In this document: positions 7,677 through 45,841 of the stretch, piece after piece
Position numbering within the stretch: the first letter of the stretch is position 1
Layout of the letters: the number at the start of each line of letters is the position of its first letter
Notes under the pieces: generated by a model
What the model was told of the DNA's origin: nothing
The model's input: the letters and a program-made list of their open reading frames with translations, nothing else
Database searches by the model: none
Program-made: the position numbers and the translations under genes
NCBI GenBank assembly: GCA_002304445.1
Contig: NEVA01000001.1
Location: 248,001-312,000 of the forward strand
From: Opitutia bacterium Tous-C4FEB
GTDB lineage: Bacteria > Verrucomicrobiota > Verrucomicrobiia > Opitutales > Opitutaceae
Direction: 5' to 3'
DNA length: 64,000 bases

Positions 7677-10280
7677 CTACGTTTCCTGCCGCAAGATCTC
7701 CAGCGGCGGGTGATCCGTCACTCCGCGGCTCGTGAGCAGGCCCGTGACCACCGTCACAGCTGCCGCCGTCGCCACCGCGCCGAGGATCAGCAGCGGCGGC
7801 GTCGCCGGCGTCATCTTGAAGACAAAGTGCGCCACCAGCGCGTTGCCTCCGATGGACAGCACGCCGCCAACCACCGCCGCGAGCACGCCCAGGATCGCGT
7901 ATTCCACGAGTTGGATCTGCACGAGTTGCCGGCGCGTCGCACCCAGCGTACGGAGGAGAACGGTCTCGCGCACGCGTTGGTAACGGCCATTCAGCACCGC
8001 CCCCACCAGCACGATCACTCCGGTCAGCACCGTGAACAGCGCCATGAACTGGATCACAAACGCTACCTTCGAAAAAATTCCGTCCAGCGCCTGCAAGATC
8101 AGCGCGAGGTCGATCGCGGACACATTCGGAAACGCCGCGACCATCTCGCGCTGGATCCGCGCCGAGTCTTCCGGCTTCGCCGTGCGCAAGGCCGCCACAA
8201 AGGTCTTCGGCGCCGCTTCGATCGCGCCTTCGGGAAAGACCACGAAGAAATTTGATTCCAGCCGCCGCCACTCCACCGCGCGCACGCTCGTCACTTTCGT
8301 GCGCAAGGGCACGCCCTGCACATCCCACTCGATCTCGTCGCCGAGCCCGATTTGCAGATCGCGCAGCAATCCTTCTTCCACCGAGATCGGCACCACCGCC
8401 ACGCCCGGCGCGACCTTGCCTTCAAACGTGCCCGCCACCACGCGCTCCGAGCCCGTGATCTTCGAGCGATAGGTCGAGCGGTATTCTCGGTTCAACATCC
8501 CGCGGGAAACGCGCGGTCCGTCCCGGCGATTTTCCGCGCGCGGCGGCTCGGCGGCGCCGGGCTCCGTCGCCGGCGGTTCGGCCGACTGCTGCCGGCGACG
8601 CATGATTTCCTCAAGGGGCCGGCCTTTCAGCGACGCGATCTTCATCGTGACGATCGGCGCCGACTGCATGAGCGGCGCGCCGTTCTTCGCCGCGAGCGCC
8701 GTGAAGGGCTCGATCTGGTCGTCCTGGATGTCGAAAAACACGAGGTTCGGCCGGGAGCCTTCACCGGCGAGATCGATCTGGTTGAGCAGCGTCGTGCGGG
8801 TGAGGTAAAGCGTGAGAATCAGAAACGTCCCGAGCCCAAGCGCCAGCAGCAGCAGCACGGTGCGGTTGTTGGGCCGGTGCAGATTCGCGATGCCCTGCCG
8901 CACCACATACGGCAGGCCCCGCGGGACAAATTTCCGTGCGGCCCACGCGACGAGTTGCGCCAGACCCGCGAGCACGCCGAAGCCAACCGCGAGCGCCACC
9001 GTGAAGCCGACCCCAATCTTCCAGTCCCGCGCCTGCCACGTCGCAAACGTTGTCACCGCCGCGATGATCACCACACCCAAAATCAACCGCCACGGATCGG
9101 TCGCTGCGCCCGTGCGTTCGATGAACGCCGAGCGCAGCGCCACGAGCGGCGACACCCGCCGCACCGCCAGCAGCGGCAGTAACGTGAACAGGAAACAGAT
9201 CACCAACCCCGCCCCCATGCCGCGACCGACCGCCGCCCACGAGATGAAGAAATTCACATCGAACGGCAGCATGTCTTTTAGCAATACCGGCAACAGCAGT
9301 TGCAGCCCGAGACCGAGTCCGGCGCCCAGCACCGCGCCGAAAACTCCGAGCGCGAGCCCTTGGACCACGTAAACCGCGAAACTCTGCCACGCGCTCGCGC
9401 CCAGACACCGCAGGACGGCGACCGTGTTGATCTTCTGCCGCACGTAGACATGGATCGCGCTCGCGACCCCGATCGCGCCGAGAAACAGCGCGACGAAGCC
9501 CACGAGATTCAGGAAGCCTTCAATATTGGTCAGCGCCGCCCCGAGATTCCGTTTTCGCTCGGCGACCGTGGAGAATTGGAGGCGTTCGCCCAAAAACCGC
9601 GCCCGCATTTCGCGCTCGATGATCTCCGCATCACGGCCCGCCGGCAATTTCACGAGCACCCGGTGCCGGGTGATGCTCTCCCGATCCGCCAGCCCCGTCG
9701 CCTCGAGCGTGCCGAACGGAATGAACGCGCGGGGCGCAAATGTCGAAATCGCCGCCGTCTCGCCCGGCACTTTTTTCAATGCGCCCGCGATCGTGAAAAC
9801 GGCCTGCCCAAGTTTTACCGGATCGCCGACCTTTACGCCGAACTGCGTGAGCAACGTCTCCTCCAAAATCACGACCTGTTTCCCCGTGCGCAACTCGGCG
9901 GGGGCTTCCGCCGGCACCGCTTCAAATTCGCCGAAGAACGGGAAATTCGCCTCGACCGCGCGCACCTGCACGAGCCGCGTGGCATCGTTAGCCGACTGAA
10001 ACACGAGCATCGAGGAAAACTCCCGCGTGCGCGACTGTTCGCCGTCGATGCCCGCCAGATACTCGAGCACCGGCGCCGAAAATTCCGTGCGGGACGACAC
10101 CACGAGATCGGCCCCGAGCAGACCCTTGGCCTGTTCGTCGATCGCCTGCTTGAGGTTGACCGTGAACGAGCCGATGGCGACGAGCGCCGCAATCCCGAGC
10201 ACAACGGAGAGCGAGAACAACAAGAGCCGTTTCCGCGAAGCCCGCGAATCCCGCCAAGCCATTTTGAGGATAAAAGTCAT
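7677..10280 (-). CDS. YbbP-type FtsX-family ABC transporter permease
   Basis: An 867-residue permease with two FtsX cores, the layout of E. coli YbbP. The N-terminal helix LLLFSLSVVLGIAALVAIGS is followed by a periplasmic domain. The first FtsX set (about 240-390) contains GAIGVASAIHVYVRQK and AVLRCLGASAW. Central helices and a second periplasmic domain follow. The last FtsX set (about 745-860) contains VLLRTLGATRRQLVQIQ. Its ATPase partner is the gene ending at 10719; the two are now separated by the GxxExxY gene. The inverted-repeat end at 10288 lies 8 bp from this start codon, so its translation signals now lie within or beside the repeat. Confidence 0.92.
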   Translation of the reverse strand: MTFILKMAWRDSRASRKRLLLFSLSVVLGIAALVAIGSFTVNLKQAIDEQAKGLLGADLVVSSRTEFSAPVLEYLAGIDGEQSRTREFSSMLVFQSANDATRLVQVRAVEANFPFFGEFEAVPAEAPAELRTGKQVVILEETLLTQFGVKVGDPVKLGQAVFTIAGALKKVPGETAAISTFAPRAFIPFGTLEATGLADRESITRHRVLVKLPAGRDAEIIEREMRARFLGERLQFSTVAERKRNLGAALTNIEGFLNLVGFVALFLGAIGVASAIHVYVRQKINTVAVLRCLGASAWQSFAVYVVQGLALGVFGAVLGAGLGLGLQLLLPVLLKDMLPFDVNFFISWAAVGRGMGAGLVICFLFTLLPLLAVRRVSPLVALRSAFIERTGAATDPWRLILGVVIIAAVTTFATWQARDWKIGVGFTVALAVGFGVLAGLAQLVAWAARKFVPRGLPYVVRQGIANLHRPNNRTVLLLLALGLGTFLILTLYLTRTTLLNQIDLAGEGSRPNLVFFDIQDDQIEPFTALAAKNGAPLMQSAPIVTMKIASLKGRPLEEIMRRRQQSAEPPATEPGAAEPPRAENRRDGPRVSRGMLNREYRSTYRSKITGSERVVAGTFEGKVAPGVAVVPISVEEGLLRDLQIGLGDEIEWDVQGVPLRTKVTSVRAVEWRRLESNFFVVFPEGAIEAAPKTFVAALRTAKPEDSARIQREMVAAFPNVSAIDLALILQALDGIFSKVAFVIQFMALFTVLTGVIVLVGAVLNGRYQRVRETVLLRTLGATRRQLVQIQLVEYAILGVLAAVVGGVLSIGGNALVAHFVFKMTPATPPLLILGAVATAAAVTVVTGLLTSRGVTDHPPLEILRQET

Positions 10281-10287
10281 AGGAAGG

Positions 10288-10768
10288 GCCCGCTAATTGC
10301 GCGAATCGACGCGAATGCAGCATAAGGCGAAGGTTTCATTGTCGGGTGCGCACGATACGGCGGTGTTCCAGTTTCGGGTTGCCGCCGAAGTTCACTAACA
10401 AGCCGAGCGCGTAGCCGGTCGCGTTAAGGTAATTCAATACTTGCGCGACGTGCTCGTCGGTCAGGCGTTCAACAGCCTTTAGCTCCAGGATGATTTTCCC
10501 GCAGCATTCAAAATCCGGGCGATAACTTTGCTTCAAACTCACTCCTTTGTAGCTCAAAGGCAGCGCCACTTGAGGTCTCGAGGGAATCGTCTGTAAACCG
10601 AGCTCGATCTCCATGCATTCTTGGTAAACGGGCTCGAGAAATCCGCAGCCCTTGTCGTTGTAGACTTCAAAGCAGGCACCGATGATTTTGTAGCTCTCTT
10701 CAGGGTAGATCAGGGCGGTCATGATTCTGAATCTCCCAATTCGCGTTCATTCGCGTGATTCGCGGGCA
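10288..10768. mobile_element. GxxExxY gene bounded by inverted CGCGAAT repeats (putative cassette)
   Basis: Two imperfect inverted repeats bound the GxxExxY gene. The left is at 10288-10316 (GCCCGC...ACGCGAAT). The right is at 10739-10768 and reads as its reverse complement with about 5 mismatches in 29 bases. GCCCGC is outermost on both sides and the CGCGAAT units point inward. The right repeat is inside the 3' end of the ABC ATPase gene and encodes its last residues; the left repeat ends 7 bp from the permease start codon. The same repeat pair, without a gene, recurs at 21312-21427. Mobility is inferred; no target-site duplication was established. Confidence 0.5.
10336..10722 (-). CDS. GxxExxY-family protein with PD-(D/E)XK nuclease-like core
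   Basis: A 128-residue protein with the family signature GFLEPVY (GxxExxY) at about residue 27. A nuclease-like core follows: YRPDFECCGKIILELKAVE, i.e. PD...(E)xK with spacing like PD-(D/E)XK enzymes. The C-terminus HVAQVLNYLNATGYALGLLVNFG is typical. The biochemical function of the family is not established as far as I know. Its ATG overlaps the stop of the upstream ABC ATPase (ATGA, 10719-10722), so it is probably translationally coupled. It interrupts an otherwise standard ATPase-permease pair and is bracketed by inverted repeats, which argues for insertion. Confidence 0.92.
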   Translation of the reverse strand: MTALIYPEESYKIIGACFEVYNDKGCGFLEPVYQECMEIELGLQTIPSRPQVALPLSYKGVSLKQSYRPDFECCGKIILELKAVERLTDEHVAQVLNYLNATGYALGLLVNFGGNPKLEHRRIVRTRQ

Positions 10769-11459
10769 AGACTACTTCATCGCTCACCACCGCGCCGCTC
10801 CTCAGTCGGATGATTCGGCCGCACTTCTTCGCCAGATCGAGATCATGCGTCACCAGCACCAACGTCGTGCCTTTCTCCCGGTTCAACCCAAAGACCAACT
10901 CCACCATTGCCGCCGCCGTGTCACCGTCGAGGTTCCCCGTCGGCTCGTCGCAAAACAGAATCTTCGGCCGGTTCATGAACGCCCGGGCCAACGCCACGCG
11001 CTGCTGTTCGCCCCCCGAGAGCTGCACCGGGTAATGGTCGCAACGCGCGCCCAGCCCCACGCGCCCGAGCAGCGCCGTCGCCTCCGCCTCCACCGCCGCG
11101 CCGCCCTCGCCGCGCAACTCCAGCGGCACGAGCACGTTTTCCAGCGCCGTGAGCGTCGGGATGAGTTGGAAATTCTGAAACACAAACCCCACGTGCGCGT
11201 TCCGCACTCGCGCCCGCCCGTCCTCGTCGAGCGCGCCCAGCTCGCTGCCAGCCAGCGTCACCGTGCCGCCCGAAGCCCGGTCGAGCCCCGCGCAGAGCCC
11301 GAGCAACGTCGTCTTGCCGCTGCCGCTCGGCCCCACGATCGCTAGGCTCGCCCCAGCAACGAGGTCAAAGCTGACCTCTTTCAGCACCGTCAACGGCCCC
11401 GCCGCCGTCCGGTAATCCTTGGTGAGCCGCTCGACTTTCAAAATGGATTCAACACTCAT
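10719..11459 (-). CDS. YbbA-type ABC transporter ATP-binding protein
   Basis: A 246-residue ATPase starting at the ATG at 11459 (MSVESILKVERL); a GTG further out is less likely. Motifs: Walker A GPSGSGKTT, Q-loop GFVFQNFQLIPTLTALEN, signature LSGGEQQRVALARAF, Walker [14 protein letters not shown]-loop LVTHD. It belongs to the LolD/YbbA group and should drive the 867-aa permease. The last ~14 residues (ANHANERELGDSES) are encoded by the inverted repeat of the GxxExxY cassette, so the natural C-terminus may have been replaced. It is divergent from the tesA-like gene, as ybbA is from tesA in E. coli. Confidence 0.93.
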   Translation of the reverse strand: MSVESILKVERLTKDYRTAAGPLTVLKEVSFDLVAGASLAIVGPSGSGKTTLLGLCAGLDRASGGTVTLAGSELGALDEDGRARVRNAHVGFVFQNFQLIPTLTALENVLVPLELRGEGGAAVEAEATALLGRVGLGARCDHYPVQLSGGEQQRVALARAFMNRPKILFCDEPTGNLDGDTAAAMVELVFGLNREKGTTLVLVTHDLDLAKKCGRIIRLRSGAVVSDEVVLPANHANERELGDSES

Positions 11460-11501
11460 TGGTCCGACCACGAAACACACGAATCTTTCAAAATCGAGCC
11501 C

Positions 11502-12197
11502 ATGTCCCGTTTCCTTTTGGCCCTCTCCCGCTCTTTGCCCGCTTGGGTGTGTTTCGCCGCGATCTGCTTCCCGACCCTACCGCTCCCCGCCGCCGAGCCC
11601 ATCACCAAGACTTTGGTCTGCTTCGGCGACAGCCTCACCGCCGGTTACGGACTCGAAAGCGCCGCGACCGACGCCTACCCCGCTCTCCTGCAAGAGAAGC
11701 TCGACGCCTCAAGCTCCCCGTCCGCCACCGGCTCCAACGGCACCGCGCCCACCGTGCGCTGGCGGGTCGTCAATGCCGGTCTCAGCGGTGAAACCACCGC
11801 CGGCGGGGCGCGCCGGCTCGATTGGATCCTGCGCCAACCCGCCGACATTTTCCTGCTCGCGCTCGGGGCCAACGATGGGCTGCGCGGTATCGATCCCGCG
11901 ATCTCCGAGAAAAACCTCCAAACCATCATCGACCGCGTGCGCACCCGCTACCCCGACGCCAAAATCATTCTCGCCGGCATGATGATGCCCCCGAGCATGG
12001 GCGAAGATTACGCCCGGGCGTTCGCCGCGATGTATCCGAAACTCGCCACCCGGAATAACCTCACTCTTTTGCCCTTCCTGCTCGAGGGCGTGGGCGGTCG
12101 ATCCGATTTTAACCAAGCCGACGCCATTCACCCCAACATCGCCGGCCACAAAATTCTGGCCGCCACCGTCTGGTCCTACCTGCGCCCCTTGCTTTAA
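11502..12197 (+). CDS. tesA: TesA-like SGNH arylesterase/lysophospholipase
   Basis: A 231-residue exported SGNH hydrolase. A signal peptide (MSRFLLALSRSLPAWVCFAA... up to about residue 31) precedes the blocks. Block I is FGDSLTAGYG with the nucleophile Ser, block II is NAGLSGETTAGG, block III is LALGANDGLRG with the oxyanion Asn, and block V is DAIHPN with catalytic Asp and His. It should hydrolyse acyl esters in the periplasm. Divergent placement from a YbbA/YbbP transporter reproduces the enterobacterial tesA-ybbAP order, suggesting a conserved functional link. Confidence 0.93.
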   Translation: MSRFLLALSRSLPAWVCFAAICFPTLPLPAAEPITKTLVCFGDSLTAGYGLESAATDAYPALLQEKLDASSSPSATGSNGTAPTVRWRVVNAGLSGETTAGGARRLDWILRQPADIFLLALGANDGLRGIDPAISEKNLQTIIDRVRTRYPDAKIILAGMMMPPSMGEDYARAFAAMYPKLATRNNLTLLPFLLEGVGGRSDFNQADAIHPNIAGHKILAATVWSYLRPLL

Positions 12198-12355
12198 TGC
12201 CGTCCTTCAACCGGACCCGCGTTGCCGCCGTTTTCGCTTCCGTGCTGCTCGCGCTCGGCGGCTCCGCCACTCTCCGCGCCGACCTCCGCTGGGCCGCTTA
12301 CGGCCGCGCCGGTTGGGCCGAGAATGTTTCCCGCTCGTCCTTCCCGCTTAATTGA
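12197..12355 (+). CDS. Small exported hypothetical protein (52 aa), possibly a gene remnant
   Basis: The ATG overlaps the esterase stop codon (TAATG), which suggests translational coupling. The 52-residue product begins MPSFNRTRVAAVFASVLLAL and has a good signal peptide with a plausible cleavage near SATLRA. After it only about 24 residues follow (DLRWAAYGRAGWAENV...). So short a mature part after a full signal peptide may mean the gene is truncated. I do not recognise a family. Confidence 0.4.
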   Translation: MPSFNRTRVAAVFASVLLALGGSATLRADLRWAAYGRAGWAENVSRSSFPLN

Positions 12356-12589
12356 AAGGATTCCGCCATTCTTGAATTCACATTCGAGGCCACCCCGGCT
12401 AACCCGGCCAAAGCACGAAGCGGCGGGCGGGGTTCACAGGCATGGCAGGAGGTTGATTTACCGCATCGCGCAAATGGAGCTGGCGCGTTCCTCGTCAAAA
12501 GCTCAACGATCACCCTCTGCCGCCGCGCCCCCGGCCAACGCCGGTGGCCGGATCGTCCGCCACCCCCAACCCCGATCCGAAGAAATCTT

Positions 12590-15500
12590 ATGCGCCTCCC
12601 CGCCCAGCTGCGCCACCCCTCGTTCTCGGCCTTCCTCCTGGCCCTCGCCTGCGCGATCCCGCCCACCCACGGGCAAATCGCCCCGGCCCCCGCCGCCCCC
12701 GCCCCGGGCGCCGGCGAAGCCAAGGCGGCCGAGGCCAAAAAATTGGCCGACAATCTCGTCAGGTTGAATCCGTTCGAGGTCAAATCCTTGTCTGACAACA
12801 GCTACGGCGCACTCAATTCCAACTCGCTCACCCAGTTCGACGCCGAACTCAAGAACGTCCCCGTCTCCGCCGATATCTTCACCGAAGATTTCATCCGCGA
12901 CGTCGGCGTCACCAACCTCGAAGACCTCATGCTCTCCTACGGCGCCGGCGCGGGCACCGTCATGTCGAACCCCGCGGCCGATGCCCTCAGCCAGCAACCC
13001 GGCGACCGCGTCGGCAATCAGACCATGGGCGTTCGCGGCGTCGGGGTGGGCGCCCCGCGTCGCGACGGTTTCGCCGGCACCTTCGGCACCGGCGTTGGCA
13101 TGAACAGCCTTTTCGACATCGAGCGCGCCGATGTCGTGCGCGGCCCGCAGGGCCTGCTCTACGGCGCCAGTGGTGCAGGCGGTACCGTCAACATCGTCTC
13201 CAAACGCGCCAATTTCAACCGCACCTCCGGCCGCGTCGATTTCCGCGTCGATCAACACGGCTCGAAACAGGCGCTCTTCGATTACAACTGGGGCACCCAA
13301 AATGTCGCCGTCCGCATCGCCCTGCTCAACGACCACCAACTCTACCGCCGCGTCTTCATCGGCCATGAAACCCAAGGCATCTACACTCAGGTCGCCGCTC
13401 GCGTCGCCCCACTCCGCACCGTCGTCCGTCTCATCGCCGGCCAAACCGAAAACACCCGCGTGCTGAACTCGAATCAGGAAAACATCGCGTTCACCAACGC
13501 CGCCACCGACCCCCGGCACAACTTCGGCCTCGCCTACCTTCTGCGCAACAACATGGCCGGCGCCAAAGACCCCGTCACCGGCAATCCCTACCCCCGCGGC
13601 GCCATCGCCAACGGCCAACTCACGTGGGACAATCTCAACTCTTGGGCCGGCACCGCCGCCTCCGAATACGTCACCAACAAATACTTCATCGCCACGGCCG
13701 AGACCGTCTGGACTCCGTGGCTCGCCACGCAATTTTCCACGCTCTACAACAACGCGCCCACCGACCGCGCCAACGGCGGCCTCGCCCATCTCAGCGCCCC
13801 GCTGCTCAACGGCAATCCGCTCGATGTCTGGGCCAACGGCGGCACTCTCGCCGACACCGAGCAGCCCACCCGGCGCTGGGCCACCCGCGGCTCCGCTATT
13901 GTCACCAACGATCTTTTCCGCGGGTTTGCCCGGAGCCAGACGCTCGTCGGCTTAGATATCGACTGGGCCGATACCGGCCCGACCGATTTCAGCTACTACC
14001 TCGCCGATGCCAACTTCAACGTCATCTACAACCCCGCCATCCCCTCCAACCTCGGCCGCACCCCGATGCCCCGCATCTGGTGGTCCGTCGCCAACGGTCC
14101 GGTCAAAGATCCGCTCGGCCGCGGCGGCTGGCTGACGCCACGCCTGACCAACGGCGGGCAAAACTACGTCCGTATGGCCAACAACCCCCGCGACCCGAGC
14201 TGGGTTCGCCCCAACAATCCCCTCGGCCTCGCCAGCCTCGCGGGCAATCCCGGCGTATCCGGTCAAAACAACGATGGCCACAACTGGGAAAGCCGCGTCG
14301 CCGGTGTCTACGCCGCCAACAACACCGCTTGGTGGAAGAACCGCATCCACACCCTCGTCGGCCTGCGCATCAACGAGAGTTTCAAAAGAACGCCCAACCT
14401 TTCCACGCTCGCCTCCGCGCCGCCCTGGGCGGAGTCGAACAAGACCAACAAGAGCTACAACCTCGGCATCAACGGTGCCATCCGCCCGTGGTTGAACGCC
14501 TACTACAGTTTCTCCAGCACCTACAACACGCCCCTCGTCAACGCCAACGACCCGCTCGGCAATCCCCCCGCCACCTCCAGCGGCGTCGGTCACGAATTCG
14601 GCCTCAAGTTCGGCGACGAGCGCGGCCGCATCTCCGGGTCCATCCAGTATTACAACACCGACTCGAAGGATGAGATGATCAACGCCGGCGGCGGCGTCCG
14701 AGACCTCGTCAACCCCACCGGACTCAACGGCTCGTTTGACGGCCCCGCGGGTTTTAAAAACCAATGGGTCAACCTCGACCGCACCACCCGCGGCCTCGAA
14801 GTCATCCTCACGGCCAACCCGGCGCCCAACTGGAAGGTTCGCCTCGCCGCCACCACCTCCGACGGCCGCAATCTCTCCGACAAGAAATACCCAATACTCT
14901 GGAACGACGATTTCCACGTGCGCAACGGCGGCGTGACCTACCAGAACGGCAACCCCGTCCTCGTCCCCACCACGCCCAACGTCATCACCCCCGCCATCAC
15001 TACCCTCAATCGCCAGGTCGACCCCGCCGTCCTCCAGGCCCAAGTCGGCGGCACGTGGGAGCCGCTCACCCTCGCGATGATGAACGACCGCACCAACCCC
15101 TACTGGGCCACGCCTGCCGACGACAACGGCCGCATCCAGACCAGCAACCTCCGCCGCGTGCTCCAGTATTTCGTCGGCGCCAACGGCAGCGCCCTCACCG
15201 GCAAGACCGGCCGCTCCACCTCCGACATCCCCTACGCCTGGTCCGACCCCAACGGCACCAAAGGCGAGACCACCGTCGCCAAGAAGGGCGAGAACACCGT
15301 GGGCTACGCGCAATATGTGTTCTCGATGACCAACAGCTACAGCTTCACCGGCGACAATTTCCTCAAGGGCATCAGCGTCGGCGGCACCATCGGCCTCGGC
15401 CTGAAGAACCGCACGTTTTACTACAACATCCCTGGTGGCCGCCGCGAACTCTACAGTTCGCCCGACACGTGGCAGGCCAACACTTTTGTCTCTTACCGTC

Positions 15501-15679
15501 GCAAAATCGGCAAACGCTACGGCTTCTCCACCCAGGTCAACGTCACCAACGTTTTTAACCACTACGTCTTCGGCACGCTCCCCAACAACGGCTCCGGCTA
15601 CACGAACCCCGCCAACCTCGGCGTGAGCTTCTACGGCCAACCCCGCCTGTATGTCTGGACCAACACCGTGACCTTCTGA
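12590..15679 (+). CDS. TonB-dependent outer-membrane receptor
   Basis: A 1029-residue receptor. A signal peptide of about 28 residues (LLALACAIPPTHG) is followed by a Pro/Ala-rich linker and the motif VRLNPFEVKS, which probably serves as the Ton box, as in related Opitutaceae receptors. The plug domain is visible at about 85-210 (VPVSADIFTEDFIRDVGVTN, GVRGVGVGAPRRDGF, IERADVVRGPQGLLYGASG, GGTVNIVSKR). The remainder is a 22-strand type barrel ending in an aromatic residue (LYVWTNTVTF). It should import a ligand using TonB energy. A GH95 fucosidase lies downstream, so a fucosylated glycan fragment is a reasonable but unproven substrate. Confidence 0.93.
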   Translation: MRLPAQLRHPSFSAFLLALACAIPPTHGQIAPAPAAPAPGAGEAKAAEAKKLADNLVRLNPFEVKSLSDNSYGALNSNSLTQFDAELKNVPVSADIFTEDFIRDVGVTNLEDLMLSYGAGAGTVMSNPAADALSQQPGDRVGNQTMGVRGVGVGAPRRDGFAGTFGTGVGMNSLFDIERADVVRGPQGLLYGASGAGGTVNIVSKRANFNRTSGRVDFRVDQHGSKQALFDYNWGTQNVAVRIALLNDHQLYRRVFIGHETQGIYTQVAARVAPLRTVVRLIAGQTENTRVLNSNQENIAFTNAATDPRHNFGLAYLLRNNMAGAKDPVTGNPYPRGAIANGQLTWDNLNSWAGTAASEYVTNKYFIATAETVWTPWLATQFSTLYNNAPTDRANGGLAHLSAPLLNGNPLDVWANGGTLADTEQPTRRWATRGSAIVTNDLFRGFARSQTLVGLDIDWADTGPTDFSYYLADANFNVIYNPAIPSNLGRTPMPRIWWSVANGPVKDPLGRGGWLTPRLTNGGQNYVRMANNPRDPSWVRPNNPLGLASLAGNPGVSGQNNDGHNWESRVAGVYAANNTAWWKNRIHTLVGLRINESFKRTPNLSTLASAPPWAESNKTNKSYNLGINGAIRPWLNAYYSFSSTYNTPLVNANDPLGNPPATSSGVGHEFGLKFGDERGRISGSIQYYNTDSKDEMINAGGGVRDLVNPTGLNGSFDGPAGFKNQWVNLDRTTRGLEVILTANPAPNWKVRLAATTSDGRNLSDKKYPILWNDDFHVRNGGVTYQNGNPVLVPTTPNVITPAITTLNRQVDPAVLQAQVGGTWEPLTLAMMNDRTNPYWATPADDNGRIQTSNLRRVLQYFVGANGSALTGKTGRSTSDIPYAWSDPNGTKGETTVAKKGENTVGYAQYVFSMTNSYSFTGDNFLKGISVGGTIGLGLKNRTFYYNIPGGRRELYSSPDTWQANTFVSYRRKIGKRYGFSTQVNVTNVFNHYVFGTLPNNGSGYTNPANLGVSFYGQPRLYVWTNTVTF

Positions 15680-15690
15680 GCCTCCGCCCC

Positions 15691-15714
15691 GCGGGTCGGC
15701 GTGCCACGACCCGC
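15691..15714 (+). terminator. Hairpin after the TonB receptor gene
   Basis: A perfect 8-bp stem GCGGGTCG / CGACCCGC with an 8-base loop begins 12 bp after the receptor stop. There is no T-tract, so it is a weak or factor-assisted terminator candidate, or an RNA-stabilising hairpin. Confidence 0.4.
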
Positions 15715-15800
15715 AGGTTAAACGAGCCCGATGCGCCGCCGCACGATTCATCCGCCAATCCTTGCCTTGAATTCTCAACTGTCCGCCGCATGGTTTTGGC

Positions 15801-16034
15801 ATAGCTCTCACCGTCGACCAAGTTGCCTCCGATGCCCTCGGTCTGCCGAGCGCAAGCCGGGCCGAGCTCGTGGAGAAACTCTTGGCGAGTCTCGCCGGCC
15901 AAACCAATCCGACCGTCGAACGCCTGCACTTGGATGAGGTTCGCCGTCGCCGTGTGGCCAAGCGCTCCGGCCCCTCCACTTTTGTCGACGGCGACGAAGC
16001 CCTGCGTCTCGCCCGCACCGCCCTTGGGCAATGA
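15801..16034 (+). CDS. Addiction-module antitoxin (Unstab_antitox-like) with ATA in place of start codon
   Basis: This frame encodes 77 residues: (I)ALTVDQVASDALGLPSA, then RAELVEKLLASL, the N-terminal pattern of the 'putative addiction module component' antitoxins (PF09720-type). Homologues normally start M-x-L-T; here that position reads ATA, with an in-frame TGA upstream and no ATG, GTG or TTG between. An ATG at 15790 lies in another frame and stops after four codons. The 3' end overlaps the toxin ATG (ATGA). The gene may use a rare start, carry a start-codon mutation, or have a one-base indel near 15795-15802. Confidence 0.65.
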   Translation: MALTVDQVASDALGLPSASRAELVEKLLASLAGQTNPTVERLHLDEVRRRRVAKRSGPSTFVDGDEALRLARTALGQ

Positions 16035-16306
16035 CCCATCGGTTTAACGCCGAAGCTCTGGCCGAGTTCATTTCGGCCGGCCGTTACTATAACCAGCAGG
16101 TGTCCGGTCTGGGCGATGATTTCATCGACGAAGTGGAATCTGGCAGCCACACGATTCTTTCCAACCCCACGGTTTGGAAAATTCTGGAGGACGATGTGCG
16201 GCGCTTTCTCGTCCTGCGTTTCCCCTACGGCATCTACTACACCGTCGAGTCCGATGTCGTCTTCATTTGGGCGGTAAAACATCTCCATCGCGACCCAGAC
16301 TACTGA
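16031..16306 (+). CDS. RelE/ParE-superfamily toxin
   Basis: A 91-residue protein beginning [20 protein letters not shown], the helix that opens ParE-like toxins. It continues with [13 protein letters not shown] and ends with the beta-sheet motifs [17 protein letters not shown] and [15 protein letters not shown]. The RxFPYxIYY and HxxRDPxY patterns are standard for plant-pathogen-type RelE/ParE toxins. It overlaps the antitoxin frame by four bases. The usual order antitoxin-toxin is kept, but the antitoxin start is abnormal, which bears on whether the toxin is still active. Confidence 0.9.
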
Positions 16307-16346
16307 CAAGATCGTCGAGGTTAGTGCCCGTATCCGCAATTTCCCC

Positions 16347-18959
16347 ATGTCCTTCCACCGCCCCACCGCCTTCGTCCTCCTCGCCCTCACCACCGCGCTC
16401 ACGCCCGCCGCCTTCGCCGCTCCCGGCGACCCGCTCACGCTTTGGTATGACCAGCCCTCCGAGCGCTGGACCGACGCCCTGCCTATCGGCAACGGCCGTC
16501 TCGCCGCCATGGTTCACGGCGGCCCACTCCGCGAGCAGCTCCAGCTCAACGAAGACACCCTCACCTCCGGCGAGCCGCCCTCCGATCTCCGCTCCGTGAA
16601 CCTCACGAAGGACTTCGGCCACGTCACCGCGCTCATCAAGGCCGGCAAAAACTCCGAGGCCGATGCCTACGTCTCCAAACACTGGCTTGGCCGCAACCAA
16701 CCGTGTTACCAGCCGCTGGGTGATCTCTGGCTCGATTTCGCCGGCACCGGGCCCGTCACGGCTTACCGCCGTTGGCTCGACCTCGCAACCGCCACGGCCG
16801 GCGTGAGCTTCCAACGCGACGGCGCCACCTTCACCCGCGAGATCATCGCCAGCGCCCCCGACCAGGTGATCGCCCTCCGCCTGCGCACCGACAAACCCGG
16901 CACCCTCTCGTTCAAAACCTCGTTCACGTCCGTCCATCCCACGGCCAAGGCGTCCACTGCGGCCGGCGAACTCATCTTCCGCGGCCAACTCCCCGGCTAC
17001 GTCGGCCGCCGCGATCTCAAGATCGTCGAGCAATGGGGCGACCAGCACAAATACCCGGAGAATTTCAATCCCGACGGCTCTCGCAAACCCCACGCCGCCC
17101 AAGTGCTCTACGGCGCCGACATCGACGGCAAAGGCATGTTCTTCGAGGCCCGCCTCACGATCCGCACCGATGGTAAAGTCATCGCCGACGCCGACGCTAT
17201 ACGCGTCGAGGGTGCGACCGAGGCCACCGTCCTTGTCACGGCCGCCAGCAGTTTTAACGGCCCGTTCAAAAGCCCCAGCCGCGAAGGTCTCGATCCGTCC
17301 CTGCGGACCACGCACGACCTGCGCGAAGCCGCCGCGCAATCCTACGCCGCCCTCCGCGCCGCCCACCTCGAAGACTATCAAGCCCTCTTCAACCGCGTCT
17401 CGTTTCGCATCGACGGTGATCCCGCCAAAAACCAATTGCCCACCGATACGCGCATCGCCGCATTCCGCGCCAACGGCGACCCCGGACTCGCCGCGCTGCT
17501 TTTCCACTACGGCCGCTACCTCTTGATCGCCGGCTCCCGCACCGGCACCCAGCCCCTCAACCTCCAGGGCAAATGGAACCCCTTGGTCATCCCTCCTTGG
17601 GCTTCCAGCTACACCATCAACATCAACGCCCAGATGAATTACTGGCCCGCCGAGTCCACTAATCTCTCGGAGCTCCACGAACCGCTCTTTCGCCTCATTC
17701 GCGAAATCGCCGCCAACGGCACCCGCACCGCGCGCGACATGTATGGCCGCCGCGGCTGGGTCGCCCACCACAACACCTCGCTCTGGCGCGACACCTTCCC
17801 CGTCGACGGCCGCGCCAGCTCCGCCTTTTGGAACATGGCCGCCGGTTGGTTCAGTTCCCATCTGTGGGAGCACTGGCTCCACACCGGCAACAAAACCTTC
17901 CTCGCCGAAGAGGCCTACCCGATCATGAAGGGCGCGGCCGAGTTCTGCGCCGACTGGCTCGTGCCCGACGACAACGGACAGCTCATCACCCCCGTCAGCA
18001 CGTCGCCAGAAAACACCTTCTTCGCGCCCGATGGCCGCAGCGCCTCGATCACCGCCGGCGCCACCATGGACCACGCCATCATCCGCGAACTCTTCACCCG
18101 CACCATCGCCGCCGCCGAGATGCTGGGCCGCGATCCCGCTCTCGTCACCGAGCTCCGCGACAAACTCGCCCGGCTTGCCCCCTACCGTGTCGGCGTCCGC
18201 GGCCAGCTGCTGGAGTGGCGCACCGATTACAAAGAGCCCGACCCCAAGCACCGCCACCTGTCCCACCTTTACGGCTTCCACCCCGGCAACCAGATCACCC
18301 CCGACACCGCGCCCGAACTTTTCCGCGCCGTCGCCCGCACCCTCGAACTCCGCGGCGACGAAGCCACCGGTTGGTCCATGGGCTGGAAAATCAATTTCTG
18401 GGCCCGCATGTTGGACGGCGACCACGCTTACAAAATCATCCAAAATCTCTTCAATCTCGTGGGCACTTCCGAAACCTCGATGAAGGGCGGCGGCCTCTAT
18501 CGGAACCTGCTCGACGCGCACCCGCCATTTCAGATCGACGGCAACTTTGGCTATACCGCCGGCATCGCTGAACTGCTCGTGCAAAGTCATGGCGGCGTCC
18601 TGCAACTCCTGCCCGCGCTCCCGTCCGCCTGGCCCAGCGGCGCGGTCACCGGCCTCAAGACCCGGGGCGGCTTCGAAGTCGATCTCGCGTGGGCCGAGGG
18701 CAAACTCACCCGCGCCGTCATCCGCTCCAAACTCGGCGGCAACCTCCGCCTGCGCACGAGCGCTCCCGTAACGATCACCGGCGCCCAGCCTAAACCCGCC
18801 ACCGGACCCAACCCCAATTTGTTTTTCGCCACCGTCGCCGCGGGCACACCCGAAATCGCGGACCCCGCCACGCTCCCCGGCATCACGCTCCGACCCGTAA
18901 CCACCGTCGATTTTACCACCACCCCCGGCGCGACCTACACGGTCACGCCAGCCCCCTAA
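16347..18959 (+). CDS. Glycoside hydrolase family 95 alpha-L-fucosidase
   Basis: An 870-residue exported enzyme with a signal peptide (to about AAFAAPG). It contains the GH95 N-terminal beta-domain ([34 protein letters not shown]), an (alpha/alpha)6 catalytic domain and a C-terminal beta-domain. Residues matching the known GH95 active site are visible: NINAQMNYW near residue 425 for the two Asn, SPENTF near 553 for the acid Glu, and IDGNFG near 731 for the Asp. It should release alpha-1,2-linked fucose (or galactose, as in some members) from plant or host glycans. It stands 40 bp after the toxin gene and near a TonB receptor. Confidence 0.93.
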
Positions 18960-18970
18960 TTCCGCCTTCG

Positions 18971-18991
18971 GGGCGCGCCTCGTACGCGCCC
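18971..18991 (+). terminator. Hairpin after the fucosidase gene
   Basis: A perfect 7-bp stem GGGCGCG / CGCGCCC with a 7-base loop begins 12 bp after the stop codon. No T-tract follows. The rest of 18960-19174 holds no gene; 19088-19140 contains degenerate TTCCG.../GATTCGCG repeat pieces resembling those at 21.3-21.5 kb. Confidence 0.35.
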
Positions 18992-19174
18992 TCCGCCCCA
19001 ATGCAGGGGGAGTAACCCCACCCCACTCCACCTGCGGCTACGGCATGCTCCCTCCTTCTCTCGGCTCTGATTTGTTCTCCGATTTTTCCATGTCTTCCGA
19101 GACTTCTGTGGGCACCCCTCCGACTCTCGCCTGATTCGCGTCTGTCGCTGGCCCCGACCGACCCCACCCCGCCC

Positions 19175-20056
19175 TCAGCGCCGTTTCAGCAACTCCGCCC
19201 GCGCCGTTTCCAACCGCGCGCGCTCTTTAGCCGTCAGACTGCCGATGCCCGACTGCGCGATCTTATCCAGCAGCGCGTCGACTTCACTCGTTGCCGTTTT
19301 GTCCAGCCCGACCCGAGTTGTGGTCGCCTCGGCTCGCTTCGGCTCGACCTTGGCAGTCGTCTTTGCCGCCGGCTCAAGATCGGGCAAAACCCGCAATTTC
19401 GTTTTCGGCTTCTTCTCCAGCCACTCGATGCGCGGGAGCGTCAAATCCAGCCGACCCTGCTTCCAGCGCACATAGGCCAACGCAAATCCGGCCGTCGACC
19501 AGAGCGTGATCAGCGCCGTCCAATTCCGTGAGCTCAGCGCCATCAGCGTATAAAGCCCGACCAAAATCACCGCCATCCATGCCGCGAGCACGTTGAAGAA
19601 CATCGGCACGGTCGGATAGATCGCCGCAAACGCCACAAACAACGCGAGCGAACCCGATTCACCCACCAGCTTGGCGGGCAACCACGCACCGAAAACCGTG
19701 AAGATCAGCGGCGAGATCAAATACAGACACCCGTAGAGCGCCAAAAATGAATTCCGGCTATAGACGCGTTCTACCTCTCGCCCGAACCAACCGATCATCG
19801 CCATATCGATGACGAACCCGAGGCTCGGGGGATTCACGAGGCCGTAGGTGAGGATGCGCCACACATCGCCACCCAGCACCGCTGCGCTTTCAAACGTCAG
19901 CCAGCCGAGCCAAGCCTCCAGCTTAAGGGCCAGCAACAACGTGGTCGCGAACAACGACACCACGTAACCCAGCACGACCAAATGCGCCGCATACACGGGA
20001 TACCCCTTCACCCAGGTCACGGGCTGATGTTCATCGGTGTTCTCGTAAGGGTTCAT
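19175..20056 (-). CDS. Rhomboid-like membrane protein lacking the catalytic His
   Basis: A 293-residue protein starting at the ATG at 20056 (MNPYENTDEHQPVTWVKGYP). About six membrane helices span residues 22-205. Rhomboid features are the WR-like loop (GDVWRILTYGLVNPPS), GREVERVYSRNSFLALY, and VGESGSLALF at the position of the GxSG nucleophile. In the last helix the expected HLGG motif reads LWSTAGFALAY, so the catalytic His appears replaced. The C-terminal EVDALLDKIAQSGIGSLT...RLETA tail is the short domain often found on Bacteroidetes/Verrucomicrobia rhomboids. It is likely an inactive rhomboid acting in protein binding or turnover. Confidence 0.75.
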   Translation of the reverse strand: MNPYENTDEHQPVTWVKGYPVYAAHLVVLGYVVSLFATTLLLALKLEAWLGWLTFESAAVLGGDVWRILTYGLVNPPSLGFVIDMAMIGWFGREVERVYSRNSFLALYGCLYLISPLIFTVFGAWLPAKLVGESGSLALFVAFAAIYPTVPMFFNVLAAWMAVILVGLYTLMALSSRNWTALITLWSTAGFALAYVRWKQGRLDLTLPRIEWLEKKPKTKLRVLPDLEPAAKTTAKVEPKRAEATTTRVGLDKTATSEVDALLDKIAQSGIGSLTAKERARLETARAELLKRR

Positions 20057-20241
20057 GCAGGGCTGAAAGGAAACCGTGGCCGCTAGTCCAACACTCCGCA
20101 AGCCGTGAGCACACGAAGTGGGGCAAAGTCTCGGACCCGCCCGCCGCGCCCACGCCCCACGCCTACGGCCACGTCACAACGCCCTCCGCCCTGCCGTCCG
20201 CCCGAACCGCTTCCGCTCCGATCGCCCGCCCGCTTCCTCAC

Positions 20242-21225
20242 TTAACCATACATCTGCCCCAACCGCGCCACCGTCGCCTTGACGCTCGCGCGAAACTCGG
20301 CCGGCCCGATCACCTCGGCCGCCGCGCCCCAACCCAGCACCCACTGCTCGACCTCCACCAGCGCGCCCAGCCGCAACTTCAGCTCCAACGCGCCGCCCGG
20401 CAATTCGCGCATCTCTTGCGACTCATGCCATTCCCGCTCCCGCACGCGCTCCGCCACCGTGGCGTCGAACCGGATCACCACCGCGAAATTCCCTTCGCCC
20501 CCGAGCACGCCCAGCGCACTGGAGAAAAACTTCTCCGGCGAAAAATCCTCCGGCCGCTCAAACTCCACCGCCGTCGTCACGACGTCGCCGATACGCGGCA
20601 ACGCAAACGTCCGCAACGCCCCGCGCTCAAGATCAAAGCCCACGAGATACCACGAGTTTTCCCGGTTCGCCAAATGGTAGGGCTGCACCCGCCGGGGCTC
20701 CGTCTTGGTCTCGCCCGGCTTCCGATAGGCGAAGCCCACTTCGGTGCTCTTCAGCACGGCAGCGCTCAGCGCATTGAACACCGTGAGATCGGTCTTCCCC
20801 AGCCCGATATTTTTAAACGAAACCGCGCGCAGCTCGTCCGCCGGCGAAAACGAAATCTTGTCCCGCAACCCGCCCGACAACTTCGCAAACGCCACCTCCA
20901 GCTGATGGTGAAACGGCGTCCCCCGATACTGCTCCAGCGCCCGTTGCGCCACGAGCAGCGCGAGCAGTTCGCCCTCGGTCACATTCACCGTGGGAAACGC
21001 GCTCACCTTCTCCGTGTAGCGATAGGCCTGGATCCCGCTGTCGAACTCGATCGGCAGCTCCAGCCGGTCCCGCATGAATGCAATGTCGCGCACCACCGTT
21101 TTCCGCGACACCTCAAGCGCGTGCATGAGCATGGTGCAATTCACGAGCGCGCCGCGCCGCAGCTCCTCGTGAATCCGCAGCATCCGCTCCAAAGGGGGCC
21201 GGGAAGACTGGGAGCGAAGATTCAT
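20242..21225 (-). CDS. WYL-domain transcriptional regulator
   Basis: A 327-residue protein. I chose the ATG at 21225 because a GGAG lies 9 bases upstream; an ATG at 21240 is also possible. The N-terminus is a winged-helix HTH (MLRIHEELRRGALVN, LEVSRKTVVRDIAFMRD, IEFDSGIQAYRY). The WYL ligand-binding domain follows (about 140-225, VGFAYRKPGETKTEPRRVQPYHLAN, WYLVGFDLERGALRTFAL), then a WCX domain at the C-terminus (VVIRFDATVAERVRER). The classical WYL tripeptide is intact. Targets unknown; the upstream region is repeat-rich. Confidence 0.9.
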   Translation of the reverse strand: MNLRSQSSRPPLERMLRIHEELRRGALVNCTMLMHALEVSRKTVVRDIAFMRDRLELPIEFDSGIQAYRYTEKVSAFPTVNVTEGELLALLVAQRALEQYRGTPFHHQLEVAFAKLSGGLRDKISFSPADELRAVSFKNIGLGKTDLTVFNALSAAVLKSTEVGFAYRKPGETKTEPRRVQPYHLANRENSWYLVGFDLERGALRTFALPRIGDVVTTAVEFERPEDFSPEKFFSSALGVLGGEGNFAVVIRFDATVAERVREREWHESQEMRELPGGALELKLRLGALVEVEQWVLGWGAAAEVIGPAEFRASVKATVARLGQMYG

Positions 21226-21311
21226 GATGACTGGCTCCATCCGGCCCCAGCCGTTTCCCCGGCGCAATTCGATTCCGCACCCGCCCGATTTTTCCCGATC
21301 CAAAAACGATC

Positions 21312-21427
21312 TGCCCGCGAATCACGCGAATCTACGCGAATAAAACCCGAGCCAAGAAATTCAAAAGAGGAGCTCCCCTCTTTCCGTCATTCGCGCCCAT
21401 TCGCGTGATTCGCGTGATTCGCGGGCA
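21312..21427. repeat. Gene-less inverted CGCGAAT repeat pair (solo/MITE-like)
   Basis: The left arm at 21312-21341 reads TGCCCGCGAATCACGCGAAT followed by CTACGCGAAT. The right arm at 21389-21427 is its reverse complement, with one extra GATTCGCGT unit. They enclose 47 bp that include an AAGAGG...CCTCTT hairpin. Orientation and outer GCCCGC ends are the same as in the repeats that flank the GxxExxY gene at 10288-10768. It looks like an internally deleted copy or a mobile REP-like unit. Confidence 0.7.
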
Positions 21428-21477
21428 CCCAATTCTTCCTGTCCCATTATTCCAGTTCTCCTTCTCCTCCTCGATTC

Positions 21478-21506
21478 TTCCGTGTATTCCGTGTGTTCCG
21501 TGGGCC
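21478..21506. repeat. TTCCGTG short direct-repeat unit
   Basis: Three near-perfect copies of the 9-base unit TTCCGTGTA/TTCCGTGTG/TTCCGTGGG lie in a row, 50 bp after the inverted CGCGAAT pair. Degenerate relatives occur at about 19091-19112 and, on the opposite strand, about 11467-11483 upstream of the YbbA-like gene. The remaining part of 21428-21573 has no gene. Confidence 0.5.
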
Positions 21507-21573
21507 AAAGATTCTTTCACGATTTTGATCCCTGACCCAGCCAATGTCCCACCCCCTGCGCTAGAGTGGGTGC

Positions 21574-22254
21574 ATGATCTCACTTCCATCTCCCCTCCGC
21601 GCCCGCTCCGCCACCCGCCCCGCTACCATCACCGGCCGCGCCCGCCGCGTGCTCTGCTCCGTCCCCCTCGCTCTCACGTGGTCGCACGGCGGCATCCTCC
21701 ACCGCGTCACCCACTGGCCCGAGGTCCAGTTCGAGCGCCTTTACGGCACCGAATGGATCGCGTTCGCCCCGAGCCCGGAATCCCTCGCCACCGCCGCCAA
21801 GACACTCACCGCCGCCGATTGGCAACCCTACCTCGAATTCGTCCCCGCCGCCGTCCGCGAATTCATCGCCCAATTCGCCTTCGCCCGCCTGGAGGCACTC
21901 CAAGTCGCCGCCCGCTGCCCCAGCCTGCTCGCCGATCTCGCCGAGACTCCCGCGCTCGCCGCCTTCGTCTCCGCCCACGTCGAACTCCGCGGCACCTCCG
22001 CCCCTCGCTGGTCCGAGATCAACGTCGTCCACGAGCGCAACGGCGTCTTCGGCCTCCTCGAATGGCTCGGCCTCCCTGCGTCGCGCCAGACTCTCGCGAT
22101 CCTCCGCAACGTCGTTCAACCCAATCTCCCCCGCCGCTTCCTCGATCCGCTCCGCAGCATGTTGTGGGAACCAAAAGCTCTCACGGCCCTGCAACGCGAC
22201 CACGCCCTCACCGACCGCCAGCTCTCCCACTACATTCACGCGCTCGCAGCGTAG
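21574..22254 (+). CDS. Hypothetical protein (226 aa)
   Basis: A soluble 226-residue protein with no signal peptide or membrane helix that I do not recognise. It is Ala/Leu/Arg-rich and largely helical by eye, with a conserved-looking middle (HGGILHRVTHWPEVQFERLYG, EWIAFAPSPESL) and a C-terminal helical part (RRFLDPLRSMLWEPKAL, TDRQLSHYIHALAA). Codon use and GC3 agree with neighbouring genes, which supports it as a real gene. It follows the repeat cluster and has no operon partner. Confidence 0.65.
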   Translation: MISLPSPLRARSATRPATITGRARRVLCSVPLALTWSHGGILHRVTHWPEVQFERLYGTEWIAFAPSPESLATAAKTLTAADWQPYLEFVPAAVREFIAQFAFARLEALQVAARCPSLLADLAETPALAAFVSAHVELRGTSAPRWSEINVVHERNGVFGLLEWLGLPASRQTLAILRNVVQPNLPRRFLDPLRSMLWEPKALTALQRDHALTDRQLSHYIHALAA

Positions 22255-22696
22255 TTTAAGCCGGGCACCGGCGCCCTTTAGCCATTTCGTCTCCACCCCG
22301 AGCCGCCACATCGTCGAGCTGTATTGGTTTCGCGTCACCCGGCACGCCGTCGCTTCTTAGCTGCGCTCGGGAGCGTGGGTCAGGTCCGTCCCGGCCATCG
22401 TCGCCCGCCGGTCGGGTCGGCACCGTTGCCCGCGATGCCGAGTAAGTGTTGTTACGCTCAGATCAACCCGCCCCGTGCCCAATTAGAATCGCCGCGGTCA
22501 CTGCACCTGCGCGCCGCGTATCCGCCCGGGGTCGCCATTTTCTATCCGAGTCACCCTATAGAGATCGCCGTTGATCGGCCCGCGTCCTGAGCCGAGCGCA
22601 AGAACTCCCGTGCTCTAAACGAGCCGACGCCAGCTTTCTTGGGGAACCCGGAAAACTTTTTTGCCTCCGCCGCCCACCGTCCGTTTCATCTCCCCC
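22255..22696. other. 442-bp gap without a recognisable gene
   Basis: No frame resembles a known family and short open frames here lack coding character. A weak inverted repeat (TCTAT/ATAGA around 22542-22562) is the only structure seen. The region presumably holds the promoter of the OppA-like gene. Confidence 0.4.
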
Positions 22697-45767: not shown

Positions 45768-45841
45768 TTGTCATCCATTAGATGACAATTTTTCCGGATC
45801 ACCCGTGGAGAATTGCCACGAATGTCGTCTAATGGATGACG
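45768..45841. promoter_or_regulatory. Pair of operator-like palindromes inside the exporter cluster
   Basis: Site 1 at 45768-45788 is TTGTCATC-CATTA-GATGACAA, a perfect 8-bp inverted repeat. Site 2 at 45823-45841 is TGTCGTC-TAATG-GATGACG, an imperfect copy in the opposite orientation, 55 bp away centre to centre. The core equals that upstream of rpiB (34441-34463). They lie between the ATPase and permease genes, suggesting an internal regulated promoter. A TTTTT run after site 1 also makes it a weak terminator candidate. Confidence 0.6.

Follow-up and report, generated by a model that had tools for sequence, protein, structure and literature searches.

A gene-less inverted repeat pair of 116 bases, located in intergenic DNA at positions 21312-21427 of the window (the whole stretch of 64,000 nucleotides of Opitutia bacterium Tous-C4FEB that was analyzed), is a member of a widespread, nuclease-linked family of elements. 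The coupling of a helper gene to interspersed hairpin repeats is known, and the type of helper is new. Repeat arms of this kind are associated with genes of the GxxExxY family and are polymorphic for insertion between related genomes. On balance, the pair is probably a gene-less insert of an element family that a small Cas4/lambda-exonuclease-like enzyme, inferred to act on the arms, spreads and maintains in trans.

To our knowledge, the recurrence of ACCACGGAGGACACGGAG-type sequences in the intergenic DNA of many environmental bacteria is unexplained. Should these repeats belong to nuclease-linked elements as their arms, a gene could be assigned to a widespread class of bacterial repeats, along with a clear prediction and a biochemical test, and a candidate function to a common family named only 'GxxExxY protein'. 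Direct tests can start from the empty and filled junctions identified in this analysis. Within the literature and terms searched, no paper was found that links such arms to GxxExxY and none matched arm-like strings. The passage of PMC8934634 that mentions GxxExxY is unrelated to repeats, and the term also occurs in PMC12085832.

The gene-less pair and the census of arms

The original prediction, made from the window alone, held that the pair shares its sequence, orientation and outer GCCCGC ends with the pair around a GxxExxY gene and encloses only 47 bp with a hairpin. Both points were confirmed: the two pairs end in GCCCGC/GCGGGC and an inner stem is present in the loop (Table 1). The left arm matches the three outermost heptamers of the right arm, 21312-21332 and 21407-21427 being 100% complementary over 21 nt. 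The heptamer count is unequal, four on the right and three on the left, and an alternative register (21316-21341 with 21389-21414) is 88% complementary over 26 nt. The arms pair as a hairpin of about 29 bp enclosing the 47 bp, with fold z-scores of -8.2 as DNA and -9.6 as RNA (0/200 shuffles as stable in each). Among the 25 listed of the 53 inverted repeats of the window, only this pair has arms of 100% complementarity. The 18-mer core of the arm has eight matches in the window at three or fewer mismatches, against 0.23 expected. A separate 18-nt inverted repeat, 94% complementary with a spacing of 35 nt, was noted at 45770-45840.

Table 1. Features of the window and, in the last two rows, arm places throughout the genome
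Feature	Position	Strand	Remarks
Left arm	21312..21341	-	Three CGCGAAT heptamers at 21316, 21325, 21335; outer end GCCCGC
Loop	21342..21388		47 bp without gene; inner 9-bp stem 21363-21384
Right arm	21389..21427	+	Four ATTCGCG heptamers at 21389, 21399, 21408, 21417; outer end GCGGGC
Separate single arm, other family	21478..21505	+	TTCCGTG x3 then GGC; shares the intergenic region of the 21312-21427 pair
GxxExxY gene	10336..10722	-	128 aa, PD-(D/E)XK family; TIGR04256 E 3e-39; PF13366 E 7e-40
GxxExxY element, 3' arm (gene direction)	10288..10316	-	First heptamer degenerate, CGCTAAT
GxxExxY element, 5' arm (gene direction)	10739..10767	+	Arm-core match
Gene-less pairs	C1:269315 (the 21312-21427 pair), C4:35829, C9:62408, C9:64026, C36:106323		
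Single arms	C2:114843, C5:98592, C35:179100, C36:6398, C37:19114		No antisense array within 250 bases

The pair lies between divergent genes, a WYL regulator and a gene at 21574; it adjoins protein genes and is not in any 23S rRNA gene. An Rfam search of 9800-22500 returned zero matches up to an E of 1. A terminator or promoter role was rejected: near the pair, the lone terminator-like match (21363-21384) is weak and at shuffle level (0.4 expected), and no promoter-like match was found.

The host genome is 96% complete at 3.76 Mb in 39 contigs; the exact arm pattern ATTCGCGTNATTCGCGG matches it 12 times, at 11 places, and the reversed control pattern 0 times. The genome-wide count proposed with the original prediction gave one GxxExxY-bearing element, five gene-less pairs and five single arms. 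Arms that are unpaired everywhere and have no tie to GxxExxY, which the prediction had named as the contrary outcome, were not observed; yet five of the 11 places do hold single arms. A looser pattern, with 64 matches against 5 for its control, adds two more arm families, TTTCGTG and TTCCGTG, neither of which has a cognate GxxExxY gene in this genome. The arms of 21312-21427 match arrays of the heptamer CRCNRA(G/T/A) in 8-10-nt steps, inverted and with GG/CC outward. Among the matches listed in 11 genomes, opposite-strand neighbors less than 600 bp apart form 16 outward and 0 inward pairs, one of the 16 using a coding-region match at 10233; four inward pairs, spaced 709-886 bp, were found. That match (10233-10250) lies inside a permease gene and is kept in relatives with an empty site, and therefore belongs to no element. 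At the arm places of this genome, pairs included, the upstream gene is co-directional in 13/17 clear cases and the genes on both sides in 9/17 (25 sites scored), which is a trend only. In another genome (G197; C1, C2 and C3), one and the same set of two arm cores, 139 bases from each other, is found in four locations, a pattern suggestive of a larger mobile element carrying arms.

GxxExxY genes and their arms across genomes

The GxxExxY gene of the window is the sole copy in the genome and scores 134 bits against TIGR04256 (curated cut-off 35) and 136 against PF13366 (cut-off 22). Residues D70, E80, K82, Q94 and Y98 are present in its product, and the E, D, ExK, Q and Y positions are invariant in the family (22 sequences); a copy in G006 lacks the E of ExK and reads QPK. 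The structure model (mean pLDDT 94.5) is closest in fold to SSO0001 (4ic1), which we take to be a Cas4 (Foldseek E 3.5e-5; VIA Z 10.0, 103 residues, rmsd 4.4), followed by LHK-Exo and lambda exonuclease; most remaining VIA rows are at Z 8 or below and may reflect a mere common arrangement. A sequence search against solved structures gave no match. As modeled, the protein is a PD-(D/E)XK nuclease with a predicted Cas4/lambda-exonuclease-like fold. Carriage of GxxExxY by plasmids is rare (8/72,556 records), and none was found in 50,697 phage records.

A tie between the arms and GxxExxY, part of the original prediction, was recovered well beyond this genome. Eighty loci from many phyla and from archaea were fetched and 78 analyzed after two with short flanks were dropped. 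The same heptamer frames the gene on both sides, inverted, in 58/78 of these loci, against 0/64 in the far-flank control, and the inverted-repeat score exceeds all shuffles and far flanks in 56/78; the other 20 of the 78 have no common heptamer. In the host family, 25/31 loci exceed all controls by this score, and the arms around the genes of these 31 loci read CACGGAG, CGCAGAG, CACGAAG, CACAGAG and ACGCAGAG. Mean arm self-similarity peaks at a lag of 8-9.

Arm number follows gene presence, with exceptions. Among 200 genomes of the host family, the median arm-pattern count is 42 (control 6) in the 168 with GxxExxY and 13 (control 5) in the 32 without (p 4e-15). Outside the family, the corresponding medians in 175 genomes are 25.5 (control 6) in 86 positive and 8 (control 4) in 89 negative ones (p 4e-11), and nine of the 12 families having both states agree with the trend. 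The exceptions lie on both sides: zero-GxxExxY genomes still show arm counts twofold over control, an arm excess is seen in ten zero-GxxExxY genomes outside the host family, and few arms are present in 11 of the 86 positive genomes. Six of these ten belong to a single family, f35 (G255, G310, G312, G318, G329 and G370, with zero GxxExxY matches), for which another helper or a recent loss is possible. Coevolution of arm and protein was considered and found weak, with a correlation of similarities of r -0.07 (249/2000 permutations as low); an identical heptamer was nevertheless seen at the nearest other-phylum protein in 25/58 cases (20% expected).

Gene orientation was assigned by a codon-position score, which was tested on eight segments of the window (margin below 2 in two). 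The genes are co-directional with both neighbors in 21/22 host-family and 32/38 cross-phylum loci with clear calls, ambiguous loci (9/31 in the host family, 27/80 in the cross-phylum set and 3/30) being left out of the counts. The score replaced a longest-open-frame test that was too noisy in GC-rich DNA (both neighbors co-directional in 15/31, 38/63 and 11/29). This co-direction means either transcription from host promoters or insertion tied to the transcript.

Genes of another kind are framed similarly. Four-helix-bundle genes of the TIGR02436 family are multicopy in 50/61 host-family genomes; a profile search for this family gave no match in the genome of the window. Their loci (L128-L157) are framed by inverted arms with a strict 7-nt period, 22/29 exceeding all controls, and the genes are co-directional with both neighbors in 26/26 clear cases. 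One junction, which from its translated ends we take to be gatA-gatB, holds GxxExxY elements in L083, L086 and L090 and four-helix-bundle elements in L145 and L149.

Presence and absence at orthologous junctions

The comparison of flanks with related strains, suggested at the outset, revealed insertion polymorphism: the 21312-21427 pair is present in three congeners and absent from eight. At the WYL regulator junction, it is found progressively decayed in G010, G007 and G001 (regulator identity 97, 96 and 90%), and the junction is without arms in G002, G003, G004, G005, G008, G009, G011 and G012. Six of these eight (G002, G003, G005, G008, G009 and G012) also lack GxxExxY; G006 has no clear ortholog and was excluded. 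Beyond the genus, the same intergenic region carries arms in G015 and is short and clean in G028, G032 and G034. Two further observations were made at this junction: in G005 (L048) the insertion is another, longer one that contains cggccctgaagggccggg as an inverted motif, and an extra TTTCGTG array lies near the equivalent of 21505-21540 in G010, G007 and G001, with no counterpart in the genome of the window.

The GxxExxY junction is empty in the six genomes that lack the gene, with a stop-start distance of about 30 bp. It holds elements with three arm families in G000, G004, G006, G007 and G010, and an unrelated insert in G011, a genome with two GxxExxY genes, yet with arms at neither tested junction. 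Between G000 and G010, the flanks of this junction are 93-94% identical and the genes 66%. The flanks of empty and filled junctions are too divergent for a target-site duplication to be read.

Among 16 further arm places, 14 have at least one ortholog with both flanks; C13:27260 has no ortholog and C5:98592 one flank only. The same arm family is kept across orthologs at C36:13628, C36:106324, C35:179101 and C12:135269, among others. Arm families differ between species at C9:62408, C9:64026, C36:6399, C2:114844 and the GxxExxY junction. At C9:62408, the gene-less pair of G000 is matched by an unrelated repeat pair in G010, by an empty junction in G001 and, in G007, by a GxxExxY-like gene (129 aa, E 2e-24) with ACACGGATG-type arms. 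The 21312-21427 hairpin itself, shared by only part of the sister species, behaves like inserted DNA. Two junctions (L263, L268) that carry ATTCGCG arms in the genome of the window are occupied in G010 by gene-less inverted pairs of a third kind, of ctttctcgttctc type, and in the same G010 tandem repeats of about 34 nt (accgctagccaatttccctcc...) adjoin arms at L273.

Mechanism, rival explanations and known systems

The proposed full element would consist of a nuclease gene of about 125 aa flanked by two inverted arrays, each with two to four copies of a heptamer of the type CRCNRA(G/T/A) in steps of 8-10 nt. Such elements would occupy short gaps between co-directional genes and be transcribed with the operon. 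The nuclease may recognize the arms as a hairpin or cruciform and cut, upon which host repair would either place copies of arm-bearing DNA at new junctions or overwrite arms that are already in place. In this way single arms and gene-less pairs alike would be spread and kept in trans, 21312-21427 being a trans-maintained pair between divergent genes. This explanation is backed by the presence of identical arms both at the GxxExxY gene and at ten more places, by the cross-phylum tie of arms to the gene, by the arm counts, by presence and absence at orthologous junctions, by the orientation bias, by the invariant residues and predicted fold of the protein, and by the replacement of whole elements or of arm families at junctions that stay fixed. 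Several observations argue against it: the unrelated loops described below, the arm families without a cognate gene, the 20/78 loci without a common heptamer, the arm excess of ten zero-GxxExxY genomes, six of them in f35, the twofold elevation over control in zero genomes at large, the arm-poor positive genomes, G011, the rarity on plasmids and absence from phages, the weak arm-protein correlation and the QPK copy of G006.

It is also conceivable, although unlikely, that the paired arms are a host regulatory or architectural site which binds an IHF/HU-like protein or acts as an RNA hairpin, aiding the neighboring genes. The strong hairpin at 21312-21427 fits such a role, some gene-less pairs are conserved across species (C36:106324 in G000 and G007, for example), and paired tandem-repeat sites of the TCTCCGTS[Y] class in Geobacter metallireducens are read as IHF/HU sites in the available part of PMC2700814. 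A host site does not account well for the empty junctions of relatives that share the gene order, for arm families exchanged at fixed places, or for an arm number that tracks the nuclease gene framed by the arms; the vicinity of the pair offers no promoter-like and one weak terminator-like match.

The co-direction of GxxExxY elements with the operon (21/22 and 32/38 clear cases) would also suit an element acting at the RNA level like a 23S intervening sequence, its arm stem trimmed by RNase III so that operon insertion is tolerated, and its mobility possibly passing via RNA. In Coxiella, according to the accessible text of PMC4990558, the intervening sequence is excised by RNase III and has both heptameric repeats and a terminal stem of 28 bp. 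TIGR02436, the family of the intervening-sequence protein, is framed in the host family by inverted arms of 7-nt period. We regard this reading as quite improbable: the 21312-21427 pair, between divergent genes, need not be within a transcript, and protein and repeat period differ.

In the original prediction, the gene-bearing and gene-less copies were related as autonomous element and deletion derivative, or as REP helper and its units. The arms, orientation and outer ends, being the same in both, agree with an internal-deletion (MITE-like) derivative copied by the same transposase-like activity. The inner sequence is not shared: for the five gene-less loops against the interior of the GxxExxY element, 10 to 195 of 300 shuffles were as good, and for the ten loop-loop comparisons 3 to 100 of 200, so that none of the 15 comparisons revealed shared sequence beyond chance. 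With loops that have nothing in common with the gene-bearing copy, the deletion-derivative relation is not supported in its simple form; the protein, moreover, has a nuclease fold and no transposase fold, and we hold this origin to be very unlikely. At C4:35829, the loop is conserved between species (25-29 of 2000 shuffles as good) under arms both changed from CACGGAA to CGCGAAT, a single case in which the right arm is decayed in relatives. Private loops together with a conserved loop under changed arms fit arm overwriting better than deletion-derivative copying, on few cases. Overwriting leads to a bolder and decidedly tentative proposal within trans maintenance by GxxExxY, a selfish repeat without transposase, in which a minimal Cas4-like nuclease would cut any arm copy and repair from another copy would replace arms or element in place. 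It is favored by the loop of C4:35829 and by the differing families at fixed junctions. If true, arm families would sweep through the genome while junctions stay fixed and loops private, and the four-helix-bundle elements, with their 7-nt arms, would form another class in parallel at the same operon junctions.

That the arms are REP units moved by a RAYT (Y1 transposase) is extremely improbable: the genome does hold five Y1_Tnp genes, but the arm pattern occurs at 0/5 of these loci, four of which are flanked by other, true palindromes (by eye), and single arms are neither palindromic nor tagged with GTAG, so that RAYT was rejected as helper and the prediction of REP units with their helper fails in the strict sense. 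Each of the RAYT-like genes of this genome (L278-L281) is surrounded by its own kind of palindrome, differing in sequence from gene to gene.

Trans maintenance by a GxxExxY nuclease can be set against several known systems. As described in the available portion of PMC2700814, the class 2 sites of Geobacter metallireducens are intergenic, with three tandem repeats TCTCCGTS[Y] per site, and form pairs across the two strands, variably spaced (21 pairs and one possibly vestigial single site); their binding of IHF/HU is a proposal of that paper. The 21312-21427 pair is similar in architecture, the sole basis of comparison, with paired opposite-strand arrays of about three 8-9-nt repeats. The Geobacter sites differ from GxxExxY elements in being gene-less and read as IHF/HU sites, and that portion of the paper mentions neither a nuclease link nor empty sites. 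In the 23S intervening sequence of Coxiella, the part of PMC4990558 at hand places the heptameric repeats before the ORF. It is comparable to the GxxExxY element as a small, operon-borne ORF within a long terminal stem with short tandem arm repeats, and is distinguished by its location in 23S rRNA, its S23/four-helix-bundle protein and its 7-nt repeats.

With MITEs, the pair has in common that it is short, gene-less and polymorphic for insertion, with inverted ends common to a gene-bearing element; it differs by the lack of shared inner sequence and of a transposase, and its flanks are too divergent for a duplication to be read. GxxExxY is predicted to share its fold with Cas4, lambda exonuclease and RecB-type nucleases, with ExK and QxxxY invariant in the family; it is half their length, has no sequence match among solved structures, and its function is putative. 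The family differs from the REPtrons and BIMEs described in PMC3733652 by its helper, a PD-(D/E)XK nuclease instead of a Y1 transposase, and by arms that are direct heptamer arrays with the outer end GCCCGC instead of a 20-40-bp palindrome with a GTAG end. It resembles them, as far as the accessible text of that paper describes them, in consisting of interspersed hairpin repeats, single or paired and in many cases gene-free, which are linked to a gene that repeats of the same kind enclose.
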